Source: Myxosarcina sp. GA_180221_E-2-1-MAG-40_15
GTDB taxonomy: Bacteria; Cyanobacteriota; Cyanobacteriia; Cyanobacteriales; Xenococcaceae
DNA: 64,000 nucleotides
Direction of reading: 5' to 3'
Assembly: GCA_020692205.1 (NCBI GenBank)
Contig: JAIMKV010000001.1
Span: forward strand, 4,814-68,813
The notes under the pieces were generated by a model. It ran no database searches. It was given only the letters and a program-made list of their open reading frames with translations, and had not been told where the DNA came from. Below are positions 26,537 through 37,075 of this stretch, piece by piece; within the stretch, counting starts at the first letter, position 1, and every line of letters begins with the position of its first letter. The translations under genes and the position numbers were made by a program.

Positions 26537-28756
26537 TTAAACTCCTGTGGCAATTTGAATTACCTGCATCAAGTCGGCAACGCTGCGATGTTCAGCAGGA
26601 AGCAGACAAGGATATACATTTAACCCTTTGATTTGGTTGGCTGCTTCTGTGGTTCTAGCATCTAAGGTGATTAAAGGTAAAGCAGCTAAATATGCTGATT
26701 CTTGAAGCGATCGCAAATATTGAGCGGGTTCAATAATTTGATAGCCATTTAAGATAATTACGTCTAGTTGCCAAATCCGCGCTAGAGTATGTGCCTGTTC
26801 TAGACTATCTGCTTCAATAATGCGATGTTGACAATCGAATTGTTGTTCGCTGGTGTCTGACCGCGTTAGGCAGGGAACGCTTGACCATTTTTTGAGATCG
26901 AAATTTGCACCACTGCCATGATTAGCTTGAGGATCGATTACCTCCAGTTCAGGATAGAGGCAAAGAATAGTTAAATTCTGATTAGTTGGCTTGGTTAAGC
27001 TTTTGGGATTGATATTTGAATTACCAGCTAACTGCTGCTGAGTCTGATCTTGAGGTAACAACAGGGTGAATTGACAGCGATTTGATAAATAAAGGCTAGT
27101 TACACTACCGCAAATGACTTCAGCTAAATATTCAGCAATTACTAAGTTTAAGTCCGAATCTGACCCCAATGAGCTATTTTTTGAAGCTGATGATCCATCG
27201 CTTAAGTCGCTACTGACCACAATTTCCGTCATTCCCTGTAGACTCTTAATATTGATCTTTAAATTGTCTGGAGATTTGGCAAGCTTAATTGTCGCCAAAA
27301 CCAAGTGAGAAAGTATACAGGACAAAAATAACTTGTCGGCGATCGCTATTCCTCCTGATTCAATTTCCAGATCTAATTTTGACCCAAAAGCCTGAGCCTT
27401 AAACGAAGATTCAGCCGATGCCAGTTCGACTTTATTTAAGACCTGTTGATAAAGCTGCCGACAGAGAAACTCTAAATTGATTAACTCAGGCTCTAATAGC
27501 TGTTTAGTAGTTAGGCTTGTCAGTTTTGATAAGTCATCAACAATGCTCATCATTTTTTGTCCGCTGCTTTGGATCAGCTGCACGTATCGAGCTTGTCGCT
27601 GATTTAGTTGACCTAATTTTTGTTCTCTAAGCAAGCTAGATAAGCCAATAATGCCCGTTAAAGGAGACTTAAGCTCATGACCAATAGTTGCCAGCAATCT
27701 ATGGTTAAGTGTTGCCAGACTTTTCGACTCACTAATGCTTGTTGGATTTAAAGGCTTTTGTAAAGCTATTTTAGTGGCGATCACCAACCGATAGGGAAAA
27801 TTATTGATTTGGGTTAACCGTTGTTTAGCAACTAGAGGAATCTTCAGGTAATTCCAATCTGATACTTGTTCGATCACTAAGCTTAATTGGGAATGATCTA
27901 GCTGTTCTTGCTGTTCTACCCTAGAGTCTGGATTAGACGCTGTGTAACCTGAATTGAGTATTTTTGGTGATATTTCAGACAAAAACAACTTATGACAATT
28001 ACTCTTGGCGCGATCGCCATTGGCTAAATTTGGTAGTTTTTGGGCTTGGCATTGCTGCTGGCAATCCTGTTGTGCTGAGTATAGCTGCTGTTCCATCCAC
28101 CAGGTTGCGATCTTAGTATCGGGTTGTGCTAGCGGTGGCTGTGAATCTTGATTGTCAGCAACTTGTTCTTGCCAACACTGATTCAGCTGAATATCTTTGC
28201 CTTCAACAGTTTCTATTTTTAAGGGCAAAGCAATAAAATCAATTAATTTACTTATGTAGTCTAAGCTAGCTGGTAATTGAGGAGGATTAGTTGAAGATTG
28301 TTTAGCTAAATATTTGAGTATTTTGTTTCGATCTAACTTGCCCTGTAGCTCTCCTGTAGCATTAACAACTAAGTATTCGTCTTGATGATCAAATAAAGAT
28401 TCGTAATGTAAGTAATTTAAAAATTCATCTAGCTGAATATCTGCCTGACAAATCAGCGCGGGTTTGATTATAGAATCAAAGTCTGAAGTCTTTACATAAG
28501 GAATGCTGCGTTGATCAGCTTCACTTGTGGGATGACTAACCAACGCCACTTTGTCTGCCAACCAAGTTTTAGCGATTAAGGAAAGTAAATCTTCAGCATA
28601 AATAATTCCCCACCCACCATAATTTTGAGGAACTGCCAGTAACTTGCAATTTAAATGTTGAAAAATTTTGAGGAGGCTGCTTAAATCAGTTTCTGGTTGA
28701 CAGATCGCAATTGGGTAAACAAAATTTTTTAAATAAGCAGTATTGCTAATAGACAT
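26537..28756 (-). CDS. CBS-domain histidine-kinase-like protein with degenerate ATPase and pseudo-receiver
   Basis: The 739-residue protein (from the ATG at 28756; a TTG eight codons upstream is possible) begins with a CBS-pair-like region (about 10-160). Then comes HisKA with TIGHELKSPLTGIIGLSSLL (phosphoacceptor His near 360). The ATPase region lacks the expected Asn box (ILSHLVLATIKLAK where NLLxNA is usual) and the DxGxG motif. The C-terminal 150 residues look receiver-like but have DVIILNGYQ, with Asn where the phosphoacceptor Asp is expected. It probably signals by binding rather than by standard kinase chemistry. It is divergent from kaiA. Confidence 0.72.
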   Translation of the reverse strand: MSISNTAYLKNFVYPIAICQPETDLSSLLKIFQHLNCKLLAVPQNYGGWGIIYAEDLLSLIAKTWLADKVALVSHPTSEADQRSIPYVKTSDFDSIIKPALICQADIQLDEFLNYLHYESLFDHQDEYLVVNATGELQGKLDRNKILKYLAKQSSTNPPQLPASLDYISKLIDFIALPLKIETVEGKDIQLNQCWQEQVADNQDSQPPLAQPDTKIATWWMEQQLYSAQQDCQQQCQAQKLPNLANGDRAKSNCHKLFLSEISPKILNSGYTASNPDSRVEQQEQLDHSQLSLVIEQVSDWNYLKIPLVAKQRLTQINNFPYRLVIATKIALQKPLNPTSISESKSLATLNHRLLATIGHELKSPLTGIIGLSSLLREQKLGQLNQRQARYVQLIQSSGQKMMSIVDDLSKLTSLTTKQLLEPELINLEFLCRQLYQQVLNKVELASAESSFKAQAFGSKLDLEIESGGIAIADKLFLSCILSHLVLATIKLAKSPDNLKINIKSLQGMTEIVVSSDLSDGSSASKNSSLGSDSDLNLVIAEYLAEVICGSVTSLYLSNRCQFTLLLPQDQTQQQLAGNSNINPKSLTKPTNQNLTILCLYPELEVIDPQANHGSGANFDLKKWSSVPCLTRSDTSEQQFDCQHRIIEADSLEQAHTLARIWQLDVIILNGYQIIEPAQYLRSLQESAYLAALPLITLDARTTEAANQIKGLNVYPCLLPAEHRSVADLMQVIQIATGV

Positions 28757-29407
28757 AATTATTAAATTTTTGTTTTCCAAAGCAAGCTTAAATTATGAGC
28801 AAGCATAACTTTTAAATACCTTAAAGCCATTTCATCTTAATAGTAACTAGCTAATATTTTTCAAGTAAGTTTTTTAAAGAACCAGCAACTTATCTTGTCT
28901 CGGTTCTTAACCGATAAAATGTGATGAAACTAAATCTGCGACATAGCTTTTAGCTGCCTTAGCCTCGATCTATACTTGAGAGAGGTGATCCTTAGTTTAC
29001 TAATAACTTTGATTTGACGCTTTATTTAACTAAACTAGAAAATTCATTTCACGTTTTACCAGTCTTAAGTTAAACAGATATATTATGTACAATCCTAATA
29101 CGTTCTGCCCATAAAATGAATCTCTTTTTAGGTTGCTTTTTATTACAATTCGCAAAGAGGCTCAATAAATGTTAACTTTTTATTAAATAGGATTATGTCT
29201 TGATTGAACTCGAATCATCTCTAACCTTTAGCGGATGAGCATTAGAGACTATATATCAGAGGTTGTTGCGATCGCGGGTATCTTCGTTAAAGTCTCAGCT
29301 GATATTTTGCAATCAATGACCGCGGAAGGCGGTCACAGGCAAGCACCGCCTTTTAAAGGCGGTGAACCTGTGACATTTGCAATTATTAACGTATAAATTA
29401 TCCAGCA
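28757..29407. other. Divergent regulatory region upstream of kaiA
   Basis: This 651-bp AT-rich gap separates the CBS-kinase-like gene from kaiA and should contain both promoters. Near the kaiA end is a strong hairpin (29332-29374), and TTGACG at 29014-29019 is a possible -35 element. No small ORF of coding character is seen. I cannot place a clock-output promoter with confidence. Confidence 0.35.
29332..29374. repeat. Long hairpin just upstream of kaiA
   Basis: GTCACAGG (29332-29339) pairs with CCTGTGAC (29367-29374). Inside, CACCGCCTT pairs with AAGGCGGTG, giving a nearly continuous stem whose foot is 33 bp before the kaiA ATG. The CACCGCC/GGCGGTG words recall the GGTACACCGCC dispersed repeats, so this could be a repeat insertion, or a 5'-UTR structure acting on kaiA expression. 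Confidence 0.6.
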
Positions 29408-30421
29408 ATGTCAGATTACCCAGAATTCAGTTCTGCTAAAGAATTTGCCTCAGCTAAATTATATATCTGCTTGTTTTTGACTCAACAGCAGCTATCTAAT
29501 TCGGTAACCCAACTATTAAACAGCGATCGCTATGAGCTAAAATATCTCAGTCTGGTTCAAGATTTAACTGATTTTATCGTTGAAAACCAAGAACAGATCG
29601 ATTGTTTGGTTCTATTTAGAGATGCCCAGTTAGATTCGGTCATGAATCAGCTATGGCAATCAGAGATTTTACTGCCGACGGTAATAGTTGAACTAGAGCA
29701 GTTAGTTGACGGGGCATACAAGCCCTGCCCTTCGAGGCCAGGTACAGCCCCTGACGCACTAGCTGAAGCACCGACAGAATATAGTACCTCTTTACCTAAT
29801 TTGACTACTATTCATCCTCTTTATCACCAAGCAGAAATCCGCCTCTATCCAACACAACTAACCGAAATAAATTCATACATCAATTTAGCCATTACCAAGT
29901 TCATCAGCTTTGCTCCAGGTTCAAAAATTGAGCATAATTCCCTTCAAAACGAACTCCAAAAAGAATCGGTAAGAAAGTCTTTAATCGCGCAGCAGCGACG
30001 GTTAACCGAAAAGCTCAAGGAAAGACTCGGTTATTTAGGCATATATTACAAGCGCAATCAAAACTCTTTCTATCGTAATTTATCCTCAGCCAAGCAAAAA
30101 GAGTTACATCATCAATTAAGTTTGAGGTATCGCCAGATTTTAATTGAATACTTCAATAGTAATTCCCAAACCAATAAATTAATTGACGAATTTGTCGATC
30201 TAGCTTTTTTTGCGGATATTGCTACAGCTCAAATTTTGGAAATTCATATGGAGTTAATTGATGATTTTTCACACCAGCTAAAAATAGAAGGAAGAAATGA
30301 TGATATTTTACTTGACTACCGTTTGCCACTAATCGATGTTATTTCGCATTTATGTGAAATGTATCGTCGTTCTATCCCTGGAGAAAAAGACTCTTTGGAA
30401 TTGCTCTTTGCAGTAGAATAA
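29408..30421 (+). CDS. kaiA: Circadian clock protein KaiA
   Basis: KaiA promotes KaiC autophosphorylation. The 337-residue protein has an N-terminal pseudo-receiver (about 1-135, with CLVLFRDAQLDSV) and the C-terminal four-helix KaiC-activating domain: ERLGYLGIYYKRNQNSFYRN, FVDLAFFADIATAQILEIHM, DDILLDYRLPLIDVISHLCE and MYRRSIP. It is longer than the roughly 284-residue protein of Synechococcus elongatus. Much of the excess is an unusual GC-rich stretch (29708-29776, residues about 101-123, including YKPCPSRPGTAPDALAEAP) that looks like a repeat insertion. Confidence 0.96.
   Translation: MSDYPEFSSAKEFASAKLYICLFLTQQQLSNSVTQLLNSDRYELKYLSLVQDLTDFIVENQEQIDCLVLFRDAQLDSVMNQLWQSEILLPTVIVELEQLVDGAYKPCPSRPGTAPDALAEAPTEYSTSLPNLTTIHPLYHQAEIRLYPTQLTEINSYINLAITKFISFAPGSKIEHNSLQNELQKESVRKSLIAQQRRLTEKLKERLGYLGIYYKRNQNSFYRNLSSAKQKELHHQLSLRYRQILIEYFNSNSQTNKLIDEFVDLAFFADIATAQILEIHMELIDDFSHQLKIEGRNDDILLDYRLPLIDVISHLCEMYRRSIPGEKDSLELLFAVE
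29708..29776. repeat. GC-rich repeat-like insert inside kaiA
   Basis: This segment is markedly GC-rich within an AT-rich gene and includes GGTACAGCCCCTGACGCA, close to GGTACACCGCCTGACGCG after menB. It keeps the reading frame and encodes a Pro/Ala-rich loop between conserved blocks of the pseudo-receiver region. It looks like a dispersed repeat that entered the gene without breaking it. Confidence 0.45.
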
Positions 30422-30527
30422 ACGATAGTATGTTAGGCCAAGATTAAAATAATTAATTAAGTGCTTGGTGTTTTTCAAGCAAAATTTTCGATTTATCATC
30501 TCAAAACTAGTTGATAAATTACTTAGT

Positions 30528-30863
30528 ATGATGGATCAATTTAGAAAAACTTATGTACTTAAATTGTACGTAGCTGGCAATACACCAAATTCAGTTCGAG
30601 CCCTCAAAACTCTAAAAAATATCTTAGAAAAAGATTTTCAAGGAGTTTATGCTCTCAAGGTCATTGATGTGTTAAAGAATCCTCAATTAGCTGAAGAAGA
30701 TAAGATTTTAGCGACTCCAACTTTATCTAAAGTGTTACCACCCCCTGTACGAAAAATTATTGGTGATTTAAGCGATCGCGAAAAAGTATTAATTGGCTTA
30801 GATCTACTTTACGAAGAAATTCGCGAGCAAAGATTGTCCAATCCTACGGACGGTTTACTGTAA
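30528..30863 (+). CDS. kaiB: Circadian clock protein KaiB
   Basis: KaiB is the fold-switching clock protein that binds the KaiC CI ring, sequesters KaiA, and competes with SasA. The thioredoxin-like sequence [20 protein letters not shown], then [20 protein letters not shown] and [10 protein letters not shown], is diagnostic. Two adjacent ATGs (30528 and 30531) precede [11 protein letters not shown]; the longest frame begins 21 codons earlier but adds unconserved residues. The resulting 110-111 residues are slightly longer than the usual 102-105. It sits between kaiA (106-bp gap) and kaiC (76-bp gap). Confidence 0.97.
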
Positions 30864-30939: not shown

Positions 30940-32535
30940 ATGAACGAACCAAATCCTAATAATCAGCCACAGCAGCAAGAATTAAGTACTAAGGGAGTTC
31001 GTAAGATCCGCACCATGATCGAAGGATTTGATGAAATCACTCATGGTGGTTTACCTATTGGCAGAACTACGTTGGTCAGTGGAACTTCAGGCACGGGAAA
31101 AACACTTTTAGCAGTTCAGTTTCTTTATCGAGGAATTGAATTTTTTAATTGTCCTGGGATATTTGTGACTTTTGAAGAATCTCCCAAAGATATTATTGAA
31201 AACGCCTATAGTTTTGGCTGGGATTTGCAAGACTTAATTGATCGTGGCAAGCTTTTTATCTTAGATGCATCCCCCGATCCTGAAGGGCAAGAAGTAGTTG
31301 GTAACTTCGATTTATCCGCGTTAATCGAGCGCATTCACTATGCAATTCGTAAGTACAAGGCAAAACTGGTTTCGATTGACTCAGTAACAGCAGTCTTTCA
31401 ACAGTACGACGCGGCTTCGGTGGTGAGGCGAGAAATTTTTCGTTTAGTTGCACGTCTTAAACAATTAGAAGTCACTTCAATTTTGACGACTGAAAGAGTT
31501 GAAGAATACGGTAAGATCGCCCGATTCGGCGTTGAAGAATTTGTTTCCGATAATGTAATTGTTATTCGTAATGTTTTAGAAGGAGAGCGTCGTCGCCGTA
31601 CCATCGAAATTCTCAAGCTTAGGGGAACAACCCACATGAAAGGAGAGTATCCTTTCACTATTACTAATGATGGGATTAATATTTTTCCCTTGGGAGCGAT
31701 GCGCCTTACCCAGCGTTCTTCTAATGTTCGGCGCTCTTCTGGGGTTAAAACCCTGGATAAACTATGTGGAGGAGGTTTTTTCAAAGATTCGATTATTTTG
31801 GCTACCGGTGCCACAGGAACTGGCAAAACTTTACTAGTCAGTAAGTTTCTGGAAGAAGGTTGCCGTCAGGGAGAAAGATCAGTGCTGTTTGCCTATGAAG
31901 AATCTAGAGCGCAGCTATCTCGCAATGCCTCTTCTTGGGGCGTGGACTTTGAAGAAATGGAGCGCCAGGGTTTACTCAAGCTGCTCTGTTGCTATCCAGA
32001 ATCAGCAGGTTTAGAAGATCATTTACAAATGATTAAGTCTGAGATTACTGATTTCAAGCCTTCTCGCATTGCGATCGATTCCCTGTCTGCTTTAGCCAGA
32101 GGAGTTACTAACAATGCCTTTCGTCAGTTTGTGATCGGAGTCACGGGTTATGCCAAACAAGAAGAAATCACGGGTTTCTTTACCAACACTACCGATCAAT
32201 TTTTAGGAGCTAACTCAATTACGGAATCTCATATTTCTACCATTACTGACACCATTATTTTGCTACAGTATGTTGAAATTCGGGGCGAGATGTCTCGGGC
32301 GATGAACGTATTTAAAATGCGTGGTTCGTGGCACGATAAAGGAATCCGCGAGTATGTGATTAGCTCTGACGCGCCAGAAATTCCCTTAATCAAAGAATCT
32401 TTTCGCAATTATGAGGGAATTATTAGCGGTTCTCCGTCTCGCGTTGCTCTCAACGAAAAAAGCGAGCTATCTCGAATTGCCAGAAACGTGAAAGATCTCA
32501 GCGTCGATGGGATAAAAGACGAAGATAGGCGATGA
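30940..32535 (+). CDS. kaiC: Circadian clock ATPase/kinase KaiC
   Basis: KaiC is the hexameric double-RecA ATPase and autokinase/autophosphatase at the centre of the clock. The 531-residue protein has Walker A motifs GTSGTGKT (48-55, CI) and GATGTGKT (CII), catalytic Glu pairs in TFEES (Glu79-Glu80) and AYEES, and the phosphorylation pair Ser433-Thr434 in SHISTITDT (431/432 in S. elongatus). It has IRGEMSRAMNVFKMRGSWHD and the C-terminal A-loop/tail SGSPSRVALNEKSELSRIAR. All key residues are present, so it should be active. Its stop overlaps the next start. Confidence 0.98.
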   Translation: MNEPNPNNQPQQQELSTKGVRKIRTMIEGFDEITHGGLPIGRTTLVSGTSGTGKTLLAVQFLYRGIEFFNCPGIFVTFEESPKDIIENAYSFGWDLQDLIDRGKLFILDASPDPEGQEVVGNFDLSALIERIHYAIRKYKAKLVSIDSVTAVFQQYDAASVVRREIFRLVARLKQLEVTSILTTERVEEYGKIARFGVEEFVSDNVIVIRNVLEGERRRRTIEILKLRGTTHMKGEYPFTITNDGINIFPLGAMRLTQRSSNVRRSSGVKTLDKLCGGGFFKDSIILATGATGTGKTLLVSKFLEEGCRQGERSVLFAYEESRAQLSRNASSWGVDFEEMERQGLLKLLCCYPESAGLEDHLQMIKSEITDFKPSRIAIDSLSALARGVTNNAFRQFVIGVTGYAKQEEITGFFTNTTDQFLGANSITESHISTITDTIILLQYVEIRGEMSRAMNVFKMRGSWHDKGIREYVISSDAPEIPLIKESFRNYEGIISGSPSRVALNEKSELSRIARNVKDLSVDGIKDEDRR

Positions 32536-33599
32536 ATAGTGAGATTGAGCAAATTGAGTCTTTTTTACAAGCTCAGATTGCTCCTTTAGCCAACAAAATA
32601 GATCGTCAGCCTCAAGTTTTAAAGTTAGCCTTGCAAAAAATCGGCGATCGCTCTTGGTTGGCTTTAAAAGCTGCTCCCGAATTGGGCGGAACAGGTTTGA
32701 GCGACGCAGACTATCTGAGTTTACAAATCAGGATGGCAAGAGCTTCTGGAGCTTTGACTTTTTTGCAAACCCAACATCAGAGTGCCGTAGCTAAGCTCGC
32801 ACAAAGCCAAAATAAGTCTTTGCAGCAAGAATTTTTTCCTGATGTAGCACAAGGCAAGGCTTTAATCGGGGTTGGGTTTTCTCATTTGCGCCGTCGCGGG
32901 GTGCCAATGATGCAGGCAACCCAAACGCCAGGGGGATATCTTTTAACCGGAAAAGTTCCCTGGATTACTGGCTATGGTTTTTTTACCCAGTTTGTTTTAG
33001 GGGCAACCTTGCCCGATGGTAGAGAGCTTTATGGCATGCTGCCGCTGCAAAATCAATCACCAGAATTGGGAGGCGAAATAAAGCTCAGCAAACCGATGGA
33101 ATTGATTGCCATGTCTGCTACTAATACCGTTAGTGCAGAAATCAATCAGTGGTTTTTGACTAGCGATCGCCTAGTAGCCATCAGCCCAGCAGGAGCAATT
33201 CACGCTCTTAGTCGTCGAAACATCCTCAATCATGGTTTTTTCGCTTTAGGCTGTGCTTACGCGGGGCTAGATATTCTTGAGGCTATAGCTGCAAAAAAAC
33301 AGTTAGAGTTTTTGCAAGAATCTTGGCAATCTCTCCATGGAGAGGTAATGCAACAAGAACATAAGGCGATCGCTGCTTTATTAAACAACCATTATCCCCA
33401 ACAATTACAGCTTCGTGCTGCGATGATTAATTTAGCTCAACGCTGTAGTTTAGCTGCGGTAATTGCCTCTGGTGGCGCAGCAAACTATCTCAACTCCAGT
33501 GCAGGACGAATTTATCGCGAAGCTTTACTATTTAGTGTTTCTGGACAAACTATTGACGTAATTAAAGCTAGTTTAAACAACTTATTGCGATCGGGCTGA
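32532..33599 (+). CDS. Acyl-CoA dehydrogenase-like flavoprotein, overlapping kaiC
   Basis: The 355-residue protein has the acyl-CoA dehydrogenase layout: N-terminal helices (ALQKIGDRSWLALKAAPELG, with GGTGLS), a middle beta domain (GGYLLTGKVPWITGYGFFTQ), and a C-terminal helical bundle ending in GRIYREALLFSVSGQT. Its ATG overlaps the kaiC stop as ATGA, a 4-bp overlap that implies translational coupling. Classical beta-oxidation is generally absent from cyanobacteria, so the substrate is unclear; the catalytic base cannot be placed by eye. A hairpin follows at 33613-33640. Confidence 0.8.
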   Translation: MNSEIEQIESFLQAQIAPLANKIDRQPQVLKLALQKIGDRSWLALKAAPELGGTGLSDADYLSLQIRMARASGALTFLQTQHQSAVAKLAQSQNKSLQQEFFPDVAQGKALIGVGFSHLRRRGVPMMQATQTPGGYLLTGKVPWITGYGFFTQFVLGATLPDGRELYGMLPLQNQSPELGGEIKLSKPMELIAMSATNTVSAEINQWFLTSDRLVAISPAGAIHALSRRNILNHGFFALGCAYAGLDILEAIAAKKQLEFLQESWQSLHGEVMQQEHKAIAALLNNHYPQQLQLRAAMINLAQRCSLAAVIASGGAANYLNSSAGRIYREALLFSVSGQTIDVIKASLNNLLRSG

Positions 33600-33612
33600 G
33601 AATAACGAAGAC

Positions 33613-33640
33613 AAGCTGGGCGGGTTTTCCCACCCAGCTT
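33613..33640. terminator. Hairpin after the kai-linked gene
   Basis: AAGCTGGGCGGG and CCCACCCAGCTT form a 12-bp stem with one mismatch around a TTTT loop, 13 bp past the stop of the ACAD-like gene. The mismatch is C-A on the plus RNA and G-U on the minus RNA, and no T-run follows, so it may be a processing site or weak terminator rather than a strong one. Confidence 0.4.
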
Positions 33641-33745
33641 GAGATGTCACTGCTGTTGCGACGGGGAACCCATCGGTATAGCAAGCCCCGCCGCCCATAC
33701 GCAGATCTTCGCATTGTAGTAAAGTAATCAGCTTTTAAGCTGCTG

Positions 33746-35335
33746 CTAGATGGTTCTATAGGTACGGTAGTTAAGATTAGGAAAAATATTGTCGATCGCT
33801 TCAACTTTTTCTAACCATTCCGAATCCACTTTGCCTACCAACAGATCTTCGTAAATTTTATTAAAGCGGAGTAAATGCGATCGCGTTCTGCGAATTGCAT
33901 AGGGAACCATGGTTCCGGTACGCATAATAAACGCCCAATCAGAGGACTGCGCTAACAGCAACTCCCTAGCTGCTTGATTTAAGGCCCGCCACTCTAGTTC
34001 ATCAGCGGGTTCACGATTTGCCAGCTTAATCATTCTTTCGGCTGCTTTATGTAGATGAGGATAGACCCAAGCGTTAGTCTCATTTAACCAATATTCATGG
34101 AATCCTTTATAACCCCAGCTAGATTGTGACGGACGACAAACTTGTTGAGCGGGCTGCTGCTGCAAATATTCCGACAGGTGTGTCATGTCGTAAGTATTTT
34201 GATCGTACCAGCTCTTGCGAAAGAGAAAGTCAATAAATTGTGGTCCTTCATACCACCAATGACCAAATAATTCGGCATCATAGGGAGAAACTACAATCGG
34301 TGGACGTTGCAACATATCGTTTAGATGTTGAATTTGTCTTTCTCGGTTGTACATAAAGTTACTGGCGTGTTCTGCAGCTTTTTCCCTTGCCCAATAAGGA
34401 TCGTAAAGACCTTTTTCTGACAATCCGCCATCGCGACTAGTAATTTTATGATATTTGATACCCGTATTTTTGCGCTGACCATTAGGCATAATGTAGGGCT
34501 TAATATACTCATATTCTGCCTCCCAGCCTAAGTCTTTATAAAATTCACGATATTCAACTGCACCAGGATAGCCAACTTTAGAAGACCAAACTTGCTGCGA
34601 AGATTCGTGATCTCGACCAAAAGCAGCAACTCCTGTTTCGGTAAAAATCGGCGCATAAGAGCCGAAACGAGGACGAGGACGTGCATAAAGAATACCGTGT
34701 CCATCAGTTAAAAAGTAGCGTAAGCCAGCATCAGCCAGCATTCTTTCTAAACCTTCATAGTAGGCACATTCTGGTAGCCAAATTCCTTTGGGTGGACGAC
34801 CAAAGTTTGACTCATAGTGTTCGCAAGCGACCTTGATTTGTGACCACACTGCTTGAGGATACATCTTCATCAAAGGAAGATAACCATGAGTCGCACCACA
34901 GGTAATAATGTCAAGGTTGCCACTATCTAAAAATTGTTTGAATGCAGCTACTAAATCTCTACTGTAGTCTTCCCATGTTTTTCTGATTTGATTAAAAGAG
35001 TTAGCATAATATTCGGCCAGATAGCGCATATGACCATTGTGTTGATGACGTTCTAACTCTTTGCTAATTAATTCCTGTAGCTGAGTAAGATGAGCATCAT
35101 AACGATCTTGTAGTAGTTCATCACGTAACATTGACACTAAAGGCGGTGTCATACTCATCGTCATTTTGAAATCAACCCCGTCTCGCTTCAAGTTTTCAAA
35201 TACCTGAAGCAAAGGAACATAGGTTTCAGTTATGGCTTCAAACAGCCATTCTTCTTCTAAAACAAAATCGCTTTCTGGATGACGAACGAAAGGCAAGTGA
35301 GCATGTAAGACGAGAGCAAGATAACCAAGAGCCAT
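33746..35335 (-). CDS. GH57 family 1,4-alpha-glucan branching enzyme (DUF1957)
   Basis: The 529-residue protein is a glycoside hydrolase family 57 branching enzyme that introduces alpha-1,6 branches in glycogen. It starts MALGYLALVLHAHLPFVRHP, then has MTMSMTPPLVSMLRDE, the nucleophile Glu in GIWLPECAYYEG, the acid/base Asp in VVSPYDAELFGHWWYEG, and the C-terminal DUF1957 helical region. The start is the ATG at 35335. It lies on the opposite strand between the kai operon and sasA. Glycogen turnover is strongly clock-linked in cyanobacteria, so the placement is suggestive. Confidence 0.9.
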   Translation of the reverse strand: MALGYLALVLHAHLPFVRHPESDFVLEEEWLFEAITETYVPLLQVFENLKRDGVDFKMTMSMTPPLVSMLRDELLQDRYDAHLTQLQELISKELERHQHNGHMRYLAEYYANSFNQIRKTWEDYSRDLVAAFKQFLDSGNLDIITCGATHGYLPLMKMYPQAVWSQIKVACEHYESNFGRPPKGIWLPECAYYEGLERMLADAGLRYFLTDGHGILYARPRPRFGSYAPIFTETGVAAFGRDHESSQQVWSSKVGYPGAVEYREFYKDLGWEAEYEYIKPYIMPNGQRKNTGIKYHKITSRDGGLSEKGLYDPYWAREKAAEHASNFMYNRERQIQHLNDMLQRPPIVVSPYDAELFGHWWYEGPQFIDFLFRKSWYDQNTYDMTHLSEYLQQQPAQQVCRPSQSSWGYKGFHEYWLNETNAWVYPHLHKAAERMIKLANREPADELEWRALNQAARELLLAQSSDWAFIMRTGTMVPYAIRRTRSHLLRFNKIYEDLLVGKVDSEWLEKVEAIDNIFPNLNYRTYRTI

Positions 35336-35896: not shown

Positions 35897-37075
35897 GTGT
35901 TGCAATCCAATAAGCAATACCCTGATTACGACCAAAGTAATTCTGAGGAACTATTGCTTCAACTATTATTGTTTGTAGATAAACGCTCTTCTTCAGATGA
36001 GCAAATTCAAGAAATTCAGGCTTACTTAGAGAGTTTGCAATCTGATTACTCTTTTAAGCTAAATGTGGTTGAGATCGAAAAACAACCTCACTTAGTAGAG
36101 TTTCTGAAGCTGGTTGCGACTCCTGCTTTGGTTAAAATAGCTCCAGCACCCCGACAGACTTTAGCAGGAAGCAATTTAATTAAGCAGTTAGAAAAATGGT
36201 GGCCTAAATGGAAGACTTCTCAAGCAGATTTAGCAGCAAGCGAAAATGAACCTAATACGCTAGAGAAATCAAACTACCTCGTAGCCCAGCAGAGTTATTC
36301 TGTTAAAGATATTGAACTAGCCGACGAAATATTTAGCCTGAAGCGAGAAAAAGAAGAACTGGCTGCACAGCTAAAGTTTAAAGATCAGATTCTGGCTATG
36401 TTAGCCCACGACCTGCGGACACCTCTGACAGCAGCTTCAATGGCAGTAGAAACTATTGAACTATCAGAGCAAAATGATCGCTTAGAAGCGAACAAGCTAA
36501 AAACTCTCAAACAAAGGCTTTTTCGACAAGCCAAAAATCAATTCGGCATCATGAATGGCATGATTAGCGAACTATTACAAAATTCTCAGAGTGTGAATGC
36601 TAACTTAGCCGTTAAGCCTAGATCGCTAGATTTACCAACCTTATTCCAGGAAGTAATTAGTCAGTTTGATGCCAGGCTAAAGCAGAAACTGATGAATTTT
36701 CAACAAGATATTCCTCGAGATCTGCCTCAAGTTTATGCTGACGAAGAGTTAATTCGTCAGTTAGTGGGCAACCTGCTTGATAATGCCATCAAATACACTC
36801 CCAAGCAAGGTAAAATTTCGTTATCTGCATTACACCGTACCAATCAGAAAGTTCAGGTCAGTATTTGTGATACAGGACCAGGGATTCCCCCAGAGAAAAG
36901 AGAACGAATCTTTGAAGATAGCTTCCGTCTGAAGCGCGATCGCGACTCCGAAGGCTATGGATTAGGGTTAGCAATGTGTTATCAAATAGTTTGCGCCCAT
37001 TACGGTCAAATTTGGGTGGAAAGCTCTCCTGAATCAGGTAGCTGTTTTCAATTCACTTTGTTGGTCTACAAGTAA
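35897..37075 (+). CDS. sasA: Clock output histidine kinase SasA
   Basis: SasA binds KaiC through a KaiB-like domain and phosphorylates RpaA. The 392-residue protein has that thioredoxin-like N-terminus (LLLQLLLFVDKRSSSDEQIQ, FLKLVATPALVKIAPAPRQT), HisKA with LAHDLRTPLTAAS (His171), VGNLLDNAIKYTP, CDTGPGIPPEKRERIFED and GYGLGLAMCYQIV. The start is GTG at 35897, and no Shine-Dalgarno is visible. sasA is unlinked to kai in S. elongatus; here it is 2.3 kb from the ACAD-like gene. rpaA is not in the window. Confidence 0.94.
   Translation: MLQSNKQYPDYDQSNSEELLLQLLLFVDKRSSSDEQIQEIQAYLESLQSDYSFKLNVVEIEKQPHLVEFLKLVATPALVKIAPAPRQTLAGSNLIKQLEKWWPKWKTSQADLAASENEPNTLEKSNYLVAQQSYSVKDIELADEIFSLKREKEELAAQLKFKDQILAMLAHDLRTPLTAASMAVETIELSEQNDRLEANKLKTLKQRLFRQAKNQFGIMNGMISELLQNSQSVNANLAVKPRSLDLPTLFQEVISQFDARLKQKLMNFQQDIPRDLPQVYADEELIRQLVGNLLDNAIKYTPKQGKISLSALHRTNQKVQVSICDTGPGIPPEKRERIFEDSFRLKRDRDSEGYGLGLAMCYQIVCAHYGQIWVESSPESGSCFQFTLLVYK

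Follow-up and report, generated by a model that had tools for sequence, protein, structure and literature searches.

The window described here is a stretch of 64,000 nucleotides (nt) from the cyanobacterium Myxosarcina sp. GA_180221_E-2-1-MAG-40_15 (contig JAIMKV010000001.1, positions 4,814 to 68,813), in which a gene of the acyl-CoA dehydrogenase (ACAD) type begins inside the stop codon of the clock gene kaiC. The protein is predicted to have a complete ACAD fold and carries no acidic residue at either of the catalytic glutamate positions. We consider it rather probable that it is an accessory metabolic flavoprotein, relocated to the end of the kai operon and expressed in phase with the kai genes, and not a part of the oscillator. 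The features that define the junction are as follows.

30940-32535, plus strand: kaiC, 531 amino acids (aa) (TIGR02655 circ_KaiC, 985 bits against a cut-off of 546)
32532-32535, plus strand: ATGA shared by the kaiC stop and the ACAD-like start (sequence)
32532-33599, plus strand: ORF of 355 aa with a predicted ACAD fold and no acidic residue at the catalytic Glu positions (PF02771 2.3e-10, AlphaFold2 model, alignments)

Placement and conservation of the gene behind kaiC

The start of the ACAD-like gene within the kaiC stop codon had been noted in a preliminary description of this DNA, and its coordinates are correct; the open reading frame (ORF) that follows has no internal stops. The same gene order was found in related genomes. 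Among 13 genomes of the genus, which is Waterburya-like and includes Waterburya agarophytonicola KI4 (locus L177), the gene lies directly 3′ of kaiC, unbroken, in seven, is broken in one (G004) and is absent from five; the copy of G001 was counted as unbroken though it is ended by a contig edge. The only genome examined of a related genus in the same family (G016) likewise has the ACAD-like gene directly 3′ of kaiC. Of 27 genomes in the family, 18 have the gene and 26 have kaiC.

The eight unbroken copies have overlapping or near-overlapping ends, which bears out a position directly at the 3′ end of kaiABC. The distance from kaiC to the gene is −4 nt in the window, +3 in G012, −11 in G005 and in G011, +3 in G008, 0 in G010 and in G016, and +3 in G001 (where a GTG at 0 is an alternative start); the broken copy also lies at +3 nt. 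The exact ATGA overlap is confined, among the copies compared, to the window genome, and tight spacing is the common trait. These nine copies follow kaiC genes that differ in their last part and in their stop codon, yet the spacing remains between −11 and +3 nt, as against a gap of 75-158 nt between kaiB and kaiC in seven adjacent loci with complete kaiC.

The gene is not retained wherever kaiC is kept, since the five congeners without it have intact kaiC in genomes that are 95-100% complete. In G004 the gene is divided between two contigs, residues 1-35 behind kaiC on the first and residues 193-353, with the stop, on the second, next to a gene for a transposase (DDE_5, 7.9e-40). Across the family, what follows kaiC on its 3′ side varies. 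Loss of the ACAD-like gene in part of the genus speaks against an indispensable role in the clock.

Predicted fold and putative active site

The ACAD label follows from a Pfam match and from the predicted fold. PF02771, the ACAD N-terminal domain, was matched over residues 6-109 only, at 41.3 bits and hence above the gathering score of 22.9; with E values up to 1 it was the only Pfam family found in the window protein, PF02770 and PF00441 not being matched. A relative (L088) scored 21.4 bits with PF00441, below the cut-off of 22.4. An AlphaFold2 model built from 30 orthologues (pLDDT 93.1, pTM 0.91) represents a complete ACAD fold, with a helical N-terminal part, a β-structured middle and a helical C-terminal part. 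The best match in Foldseek was 2cx9 (E 3.3e-16), and VIA-align against the PDB gave a best Z of 35.8 over 346 residues, with Z between 33.3 and 35.8 among the 50 matches listed. No group D flavin monooxygenase was among the 50 Foldseek and VIA-align matches listed, which excludes nothing.

Catalytic positions were located by profile alignments to isovaleryl-CoA dehydrogenase (IVD), MmgC and Tfu_1647, and residues were counted over 117 rows of the family, distinct in full although some are near-duplicates. We take Glu376 of medium-chain acyl-CoA dehydrogenase (MCAD) and Glu254 of IVD to be the catalytic positions. The equivalent of MCAD Glu376 is G338 in the window protein (G in 106 of 117 rows, A in 10, a gap in one), and the position of IVD Glu254 falls at or near N230, an asparagine in 97 of the 117. 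Residues 225-232 of the window protein read A-L-S-R-R-N-I-L, with no acidic residue. Other members of the family often have an acidic residue in this stretch (D227 in 84 of 117 rows, E225 in 58), so that a substitute base would be possible in them, though not in the window protein.

As to the flavin adenine dinucleotide (FAD) site, W144 is present in every row, position 146 holds T in 113 rows and S in four, and position 340 holds T in 111 and S in three. The T/S-E-P of the FAD loop is replaced by S-H/Q-L-R-R, and the R-x-x-F-G segment between the two long C-terminal helices, which normally bears FAD-binding residues, is about 8 residues shorter than in MmgC. Residues S72, G73, F77, Q81, H82, R120, G147, G240 and R295 are likewise invariant (117 of 117). 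On the retention of catalytic and FAD-binding residues, which the preliminary description had raised, the answer is thus divided: the catalytic base is gone by alignment, whereas the FAD site keeps W144, T146 and T340 with an altered loop and a shortened segment.

A canonical acyl-CoA dehydrogenase or oxidase, with acyl-CoA or acyl-carrier substrates, would agree with the fold and the N-terminal domain, and also with the structural match to ColB1 (Z 34.8), an ACAD-fold flavoprotein that acts on a carrier-tethered substrate. The alignment, however, places a glutamate at neither catalytic position, the FAD loop and inter-helix segment are changed as described, and no named ACAD equivalog in NCBIfam came above its curated cut-off, the best reaching 32.1 bits against 600. 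Moreover, no electron transfer flavoprotein (ETF, PF01012) was found in the window's own genome, which is 99.99% complete; the control was positive in 10 of 14 genomes. We consider a canonical enzyme quite improbable, and an ordinary acyl-CoA dehydrogenase was rejected, its catalytic residues being non-acidic and ETF not found. A paralogue within the same genome was also rejected, since only one match was found there.

Classical β-oxidation, which the preliminary description had held to be generally lacking in cyanobacteria, appears to be so here, as the genome has neither detectable ETF nor an ACAD middle domain (PF02770) above cut-off, although PF02770 also misses the window protein. PMC7379126 describes cyanobacteria as being without β-oxidation. 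Because of the missing ETF and middle domain, a role of the ACAD-like protein as a β-oxidation enzyme is unlikely on these sequence data. A 419-aa frame elsewhere in the genome (G000:C40:16031-16249) shows a weak PF02770 match of 23.3 bits, below the cut-off, and is perhaps a distant ACAD-fold protein.

Distribution of the family and its recurrent partners

Matches to the family (E 1e-40 or better) were obtained in 52 of 386 genomes sampled across the phylum and, within the order, in 218 of 388, representing 93 of 149 genera; these counts are lower bounds, since at most five candidates were scored per genome. A scan of genome contigs with the single protein found no relative, and the alignment-based scan gave 275, of which 80 were kept; two of the 80 are labelled Armatimonadota and the rest are titled cyanobacteria. 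The two Armatimonadota-labelled contigs, from metagenome-assembled genomes (L144, L173), carry members that are 44-45% identical and form a supported pair among cyanobacterial rows, consistent with either transfer or misbinning.

Gene neighbourhoods were surveyed in 114 sources (the window, 33 other loci and 80 named loci, with some duplicates), partners being assigned by BLAST to representatives and by Pfam on six partner-bearing proteins. A cyclase of PF04199 is fused to the C-terminus in 13 of 114 and follows directly in five, and a small PRA-PH/MazG-like protein precedes the gene in seven and is fused to it in two; one further fusion of each kind was seen beyond these sources. The cyclase domain scored 49.6 and 52.2 bits with the arylformamidase model TIGR03035 (cut-off 223), and the PRA-PH score in Pfam was 20.8, just below the cut-off of 21.3. 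The other neighbours are diverse, unrelated housekeeping genes, such as HSP70-DnaJ, glucokinase and the glycine cleavage P-protein. Neither the PF04199 cyclase nor the PRA-PH/MazG-like partner stands beside the window copy. Taken on gene order, the genomic place of the ACAD-like gene changes often.

The cyclase partner in two loci (L090:9511-10242 and L079:7066-7920) reads H-S-A-T-H-I-N-A-P. With the family motif, which we take to be H-x-G-T-H-x-D-x-P, an Asn would replace the metal-ligand Asp in both, and the cyclase partner may be unusual as well. In a group of small-genome cyanobacteria (L190, L191 and L197) the gene follows an HSP70-DnaJ pair, as judged from neighbour clustering, with Pfam run on L190 only.

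Selection and phylogeny

The ratio of non-synonymous to synonymous substitution (dN/dS), obtained by simple counting and with many saturated dS values, was 0.107-0.228 for the ACAD-like gene in the 27 finite of 28 pairs and 0.011-0.065 for kaiC in 21 pairs. The least diverged pairs gave 0.175 and 0.173 for the ACAD-like gene against 0.027 and 0.011 for kaiC. By these substitution counts the gene is under purifying selection where it is kept. The best orthologue match in relatives has 83% identity and the others lower, and, together with the dN/dS values, such orthologues rule out a chance frame or pseudogene artefact.

In the protein tree the eight kaiC-adjacent sequences from the family group together (support 85), and the seven of the genus are united at 97 on a starred branch. 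The kaiC tree groups the genus with G016 at 94/96; it was built without G010, whose kaiC is split over two contigs. The five absences need three changes on the best kaiC tree.

The kai locus and its probable expression

The remaining features around the junction are the following.

29408-30421, plus strand: kaiA (PF07688 7e-57, PF21714 3.6e-36)
within 30465-30863, plus strand: kaiB (PF07689 1.1e-30 from residue 33; the ORF coordinates count from an upstream TTG)
33612-33641: hairpin, 12 nt 3′ of the ACAD-like stop, 12 pairs on the plus strand and 13 on the minus strand including G-T
33746-35335, minus strand: GH57 branching-enzyme gene, convergent with the ACAD-like gene and beyond the hairpin

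The true start of kaiB probably lies inside the listed ORF, because ORFs at the kaiB position in relatives are mostly 101-122 aa. A sequence scan showed no terminator-like site on the plus strand between kaiC and the ACAD-like ORF. The hairpin has a terminator-like score on the minus strand only, the side of the convergent GH57 gene, and the 111-nt stretch containing it gave a z of −3.0; judging from sequence, the kai transcript may have it as its 3′ end structure. Promoter-like matches between 29200 and 33800 numbered 10 against 9.1 in shuffles (sd 3.6), which is no excess, and one of them lies on the plus strand inside kaiC at 32246-32274.

The latter match would suit a functional protein with its own promoter inside kaiC, for which the position is without consequence, even though the total for the region equals that of the shuffles. 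Such a neutral hitch-hiker would also be consistent with the many unrelated upstream genes found elsewhere and with the variable 3′ flank of kaiC in the family. Against it stands the spacing of −11 to +3 nt, held in nine copies despite differing kaiC ends and stop codons, and we regard it as unlikely.

We favour instead the following course of events for the accessory flavoprotein. A divergent ACAD-fold protein of a widespread cyanobacterial family, having lost the residues for acyl-CoA dehydrogenation and probably still binding flavin, would have reached a variable site 3′ of kaiC in the common ancestor of the genus and the related genus, the arrival behind kaiC being probably a matter of chance. 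Because the gene has been held at −11 to +3 nt behind kaiC, it most likely shares the kai mRNA, with translation most likely starting by re-initiation at the stop codon of kaiC. The gene would thus have gained kai-phased expression through its position, presumably with no role in the oscillator, and would since have undergone about three losses (on the best kaiC tree) and one break within the genus, with kaiC left intact. As for its chemistry, our best guess is a flavin-dependent step on a small metabolite followed by the cyclase-family hydrolase that is fused or adjacent elsewhere, the class of substrate being conjectural.

Two further genes of signalling type were seen near the locus. A SasA-like kinase (with a KaiB-like N-terminal domain, HisKA and HATPase_c) lies at 35897-37075 on the plus strand, 3.4 kb past kaiC, so that in the window a clock output kinase lies in near linkage with the oscillator genes. 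A histidine kinase-like gene at 26537-28780 (minus strand), in which Pfam recognises HisKA only, is divergent from kaiA; a homologue stands beside kaiA in 13 of 13 kai loci (genus plus G016) that extend that far, the contig of G010 being too short.

A second kaiC neighbour in Synechococcus elongatus-like genomes

When several searches were pooled, 125 different genomes had both kaiC and the ACAD-like gene, and in 11 of these (10 unbroken, one broken) the gene touches kaiC. Nine belong to the genus and G016 taken together and the other two are G091 and G428, giving two lineages. We liken G091 and G428 to Synechococcus elongatus from their KaiA and KaiC, an assumption of ours; they are both of the two genomes examined of their order. 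Here the gene and kaiC converge from opposite strands, tail to tail, their stop codons overlapping in CTAG, and in G091 a glutathione peroxidase gene stands behind the ACAD-like gene. The two proteins are 37-40% identical to the window protein and keep FLQTQHQSA, SHLRR and PW-L-TG. Adjacency was not observed in the remaining 114 genomes: the gene stands on the same contig as kaiC, at least 79 kb away, in 37, and on a different contig in 77, where a contig break could in principle hide an adjacent pair.

Several points weigh against the relocated accessory flavoprotein. The gene is also at the 3′ end of kaiC in this distant lineage, and the chance of a second adjacent lineage is about 0.01-0.04 by a crude estimate (two flanks, 2,700-6,000 genes, 32-60 genera). 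The strongly supported forks of the kaiC tree alone force one change for the absences, and on that tree the kaiC-adjacent genomes cluster no more than under shuffling (232 of 500 shuffles as low); for these two reasons a single gain with several losses is only likely. Furthermore, the absence of β-oxidation was judged by two markers only, ETF (PF01012) and the ACAD middle domain (PF02770).

The second kaiC-adjacent lineage is suggestive of a functional link, though not proof. The reading to which it points is a clock-linked flavoprotein, a sensor of redox or metabolite state that feeds the clock, or a dedicated output, whose place beside kaiC selection would maintain in two lineages. It is favoured by adjacency in both of these distant groups, on the same strand at −11 to +3 nt in one and tail to tail with overlapping stops in the other, and by the protein tree, in which the kaiC-adjacent rows need two separate changes and the starred branches force two. 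Ancestral linkage of the gene to kaiC was set aside on account of these two changes, not firmly, because the S. elongatus-like rows carry a long-branch warning. The clock tie that the preliminary description had suggested fares poorly in most genomes, however: the gene was not seen beside kaiC in the 114 of 125, it is absent from five and broken in one of 13 congeners with intact kaiC, and the recurrent partners elsewhere are not clock genes. Moreover, the S. elongatus-like copies are convergent and hence not on the kaiC mRNA. While a functional link to the clock is possible, we rate a clock-linked flavoprotein as very unlikely, and it is because of the S. elongatus-like neighbour that it keeps this much standing. 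Its boldest form, in which a previously undescribed ACAD-fold protein was recruited to the clock on two or more occasions, is a similarly slim prospect; the protein would be translated together with KaiC in the Pleurocapsa relatives, its gene would be tied to kaiC through the overlapping stop codons in Synechococcus elongatus, and it would serve there as a redox- or metabolite-sensing partner or a dedicated output of the clock.

Literature and significance

No description of the kaiC/ACAD-like gene pair was found in the open literature, most subscription papers lying outside the search. The gene behind kaiC goes unmentioned in the accessible parts of PMC11372060 and PMC12000584, and those of PMC3219970 and PMC12691664 hold nothing relevant on the gene neighbourhood. 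For S. elongatus PCC 7942 with acyl-CoA dehydrogenase, the portion of PMC6358636 available offered a reference title only. The corresponding portion of PMC6070526 contains a cloning flank only, the published construct taking 300-330 bp downstream of kaiC, and a flank of this type would fall inside the ACAD-like gene. A literature search on the tag Synpcc7942_1215, which we take to be that of S. elongatus, gave no match.

The ACAD fold is already known; we are aware of no earlier family that lacks the catalytic residues, bears these fusions and has kaiC as a neighbour. If the protein were relevant to the clock, it would be a missed component of the best-studied bacterial oscillator, since the last four bases of kaiC belong also to the S. 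elongatus-like orthologue, and knock-outs, tags or markers placed there would touch the orthologue. Even with no clock role, this is a widespread cyanobacterial ACAD-like family without acyl-CoA dehydrogenase residues, for which the database name would mislead, and its fusions to a cyclase-family hydrolase and to a PRA-PH-like protein point to an undescribed reaction sequence.

Comparison with known systems

The window protein resembles isovaleryl- and short-chain acyl-CoA dehydrogenases (PF02771/PF02770/PF00441; 1ivh, 8sgs, 2dvl) over the whole fold, with Z 34.9-35.8 over 344-347 residues at 16-17% identity, and keeps the W-I-T motif and the final T of the E-G-T motif. It differs from them in the missing catalytic Glu, the altered FAD loop and the unrecognised PF02770 and PF00441, and it is shorter, with 355 aa against 372 (2dvl) and 394 (1ivh). 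The assembly-line flavoproteins of the ColB1 type (7xp7) are likewise similar in fold, yet only 16% identical, and the neighbours identified in the window among ORFs of at least 90 aa (KaiC, the GH57 enzyme and the SasA-like kinase) are not assembly-line genes. Similarity to SfnB and Rv1679-type homologues (TIGR04022 and NF049984) is weak, covering residues 10-164 and 18-164 with E values of 1.2e-5 and 7e-8, and the scores of 24.4 and 32.1 bits compare with cut-offs of 430.9 and 600. Finally, the window has the kaiA-kaiB-kaiC order of canonical cyanobacterial kaiABC with intact genes, and departs from it in the extra gene directly behind kaiC, which is found in part of one genus and in one related genome.

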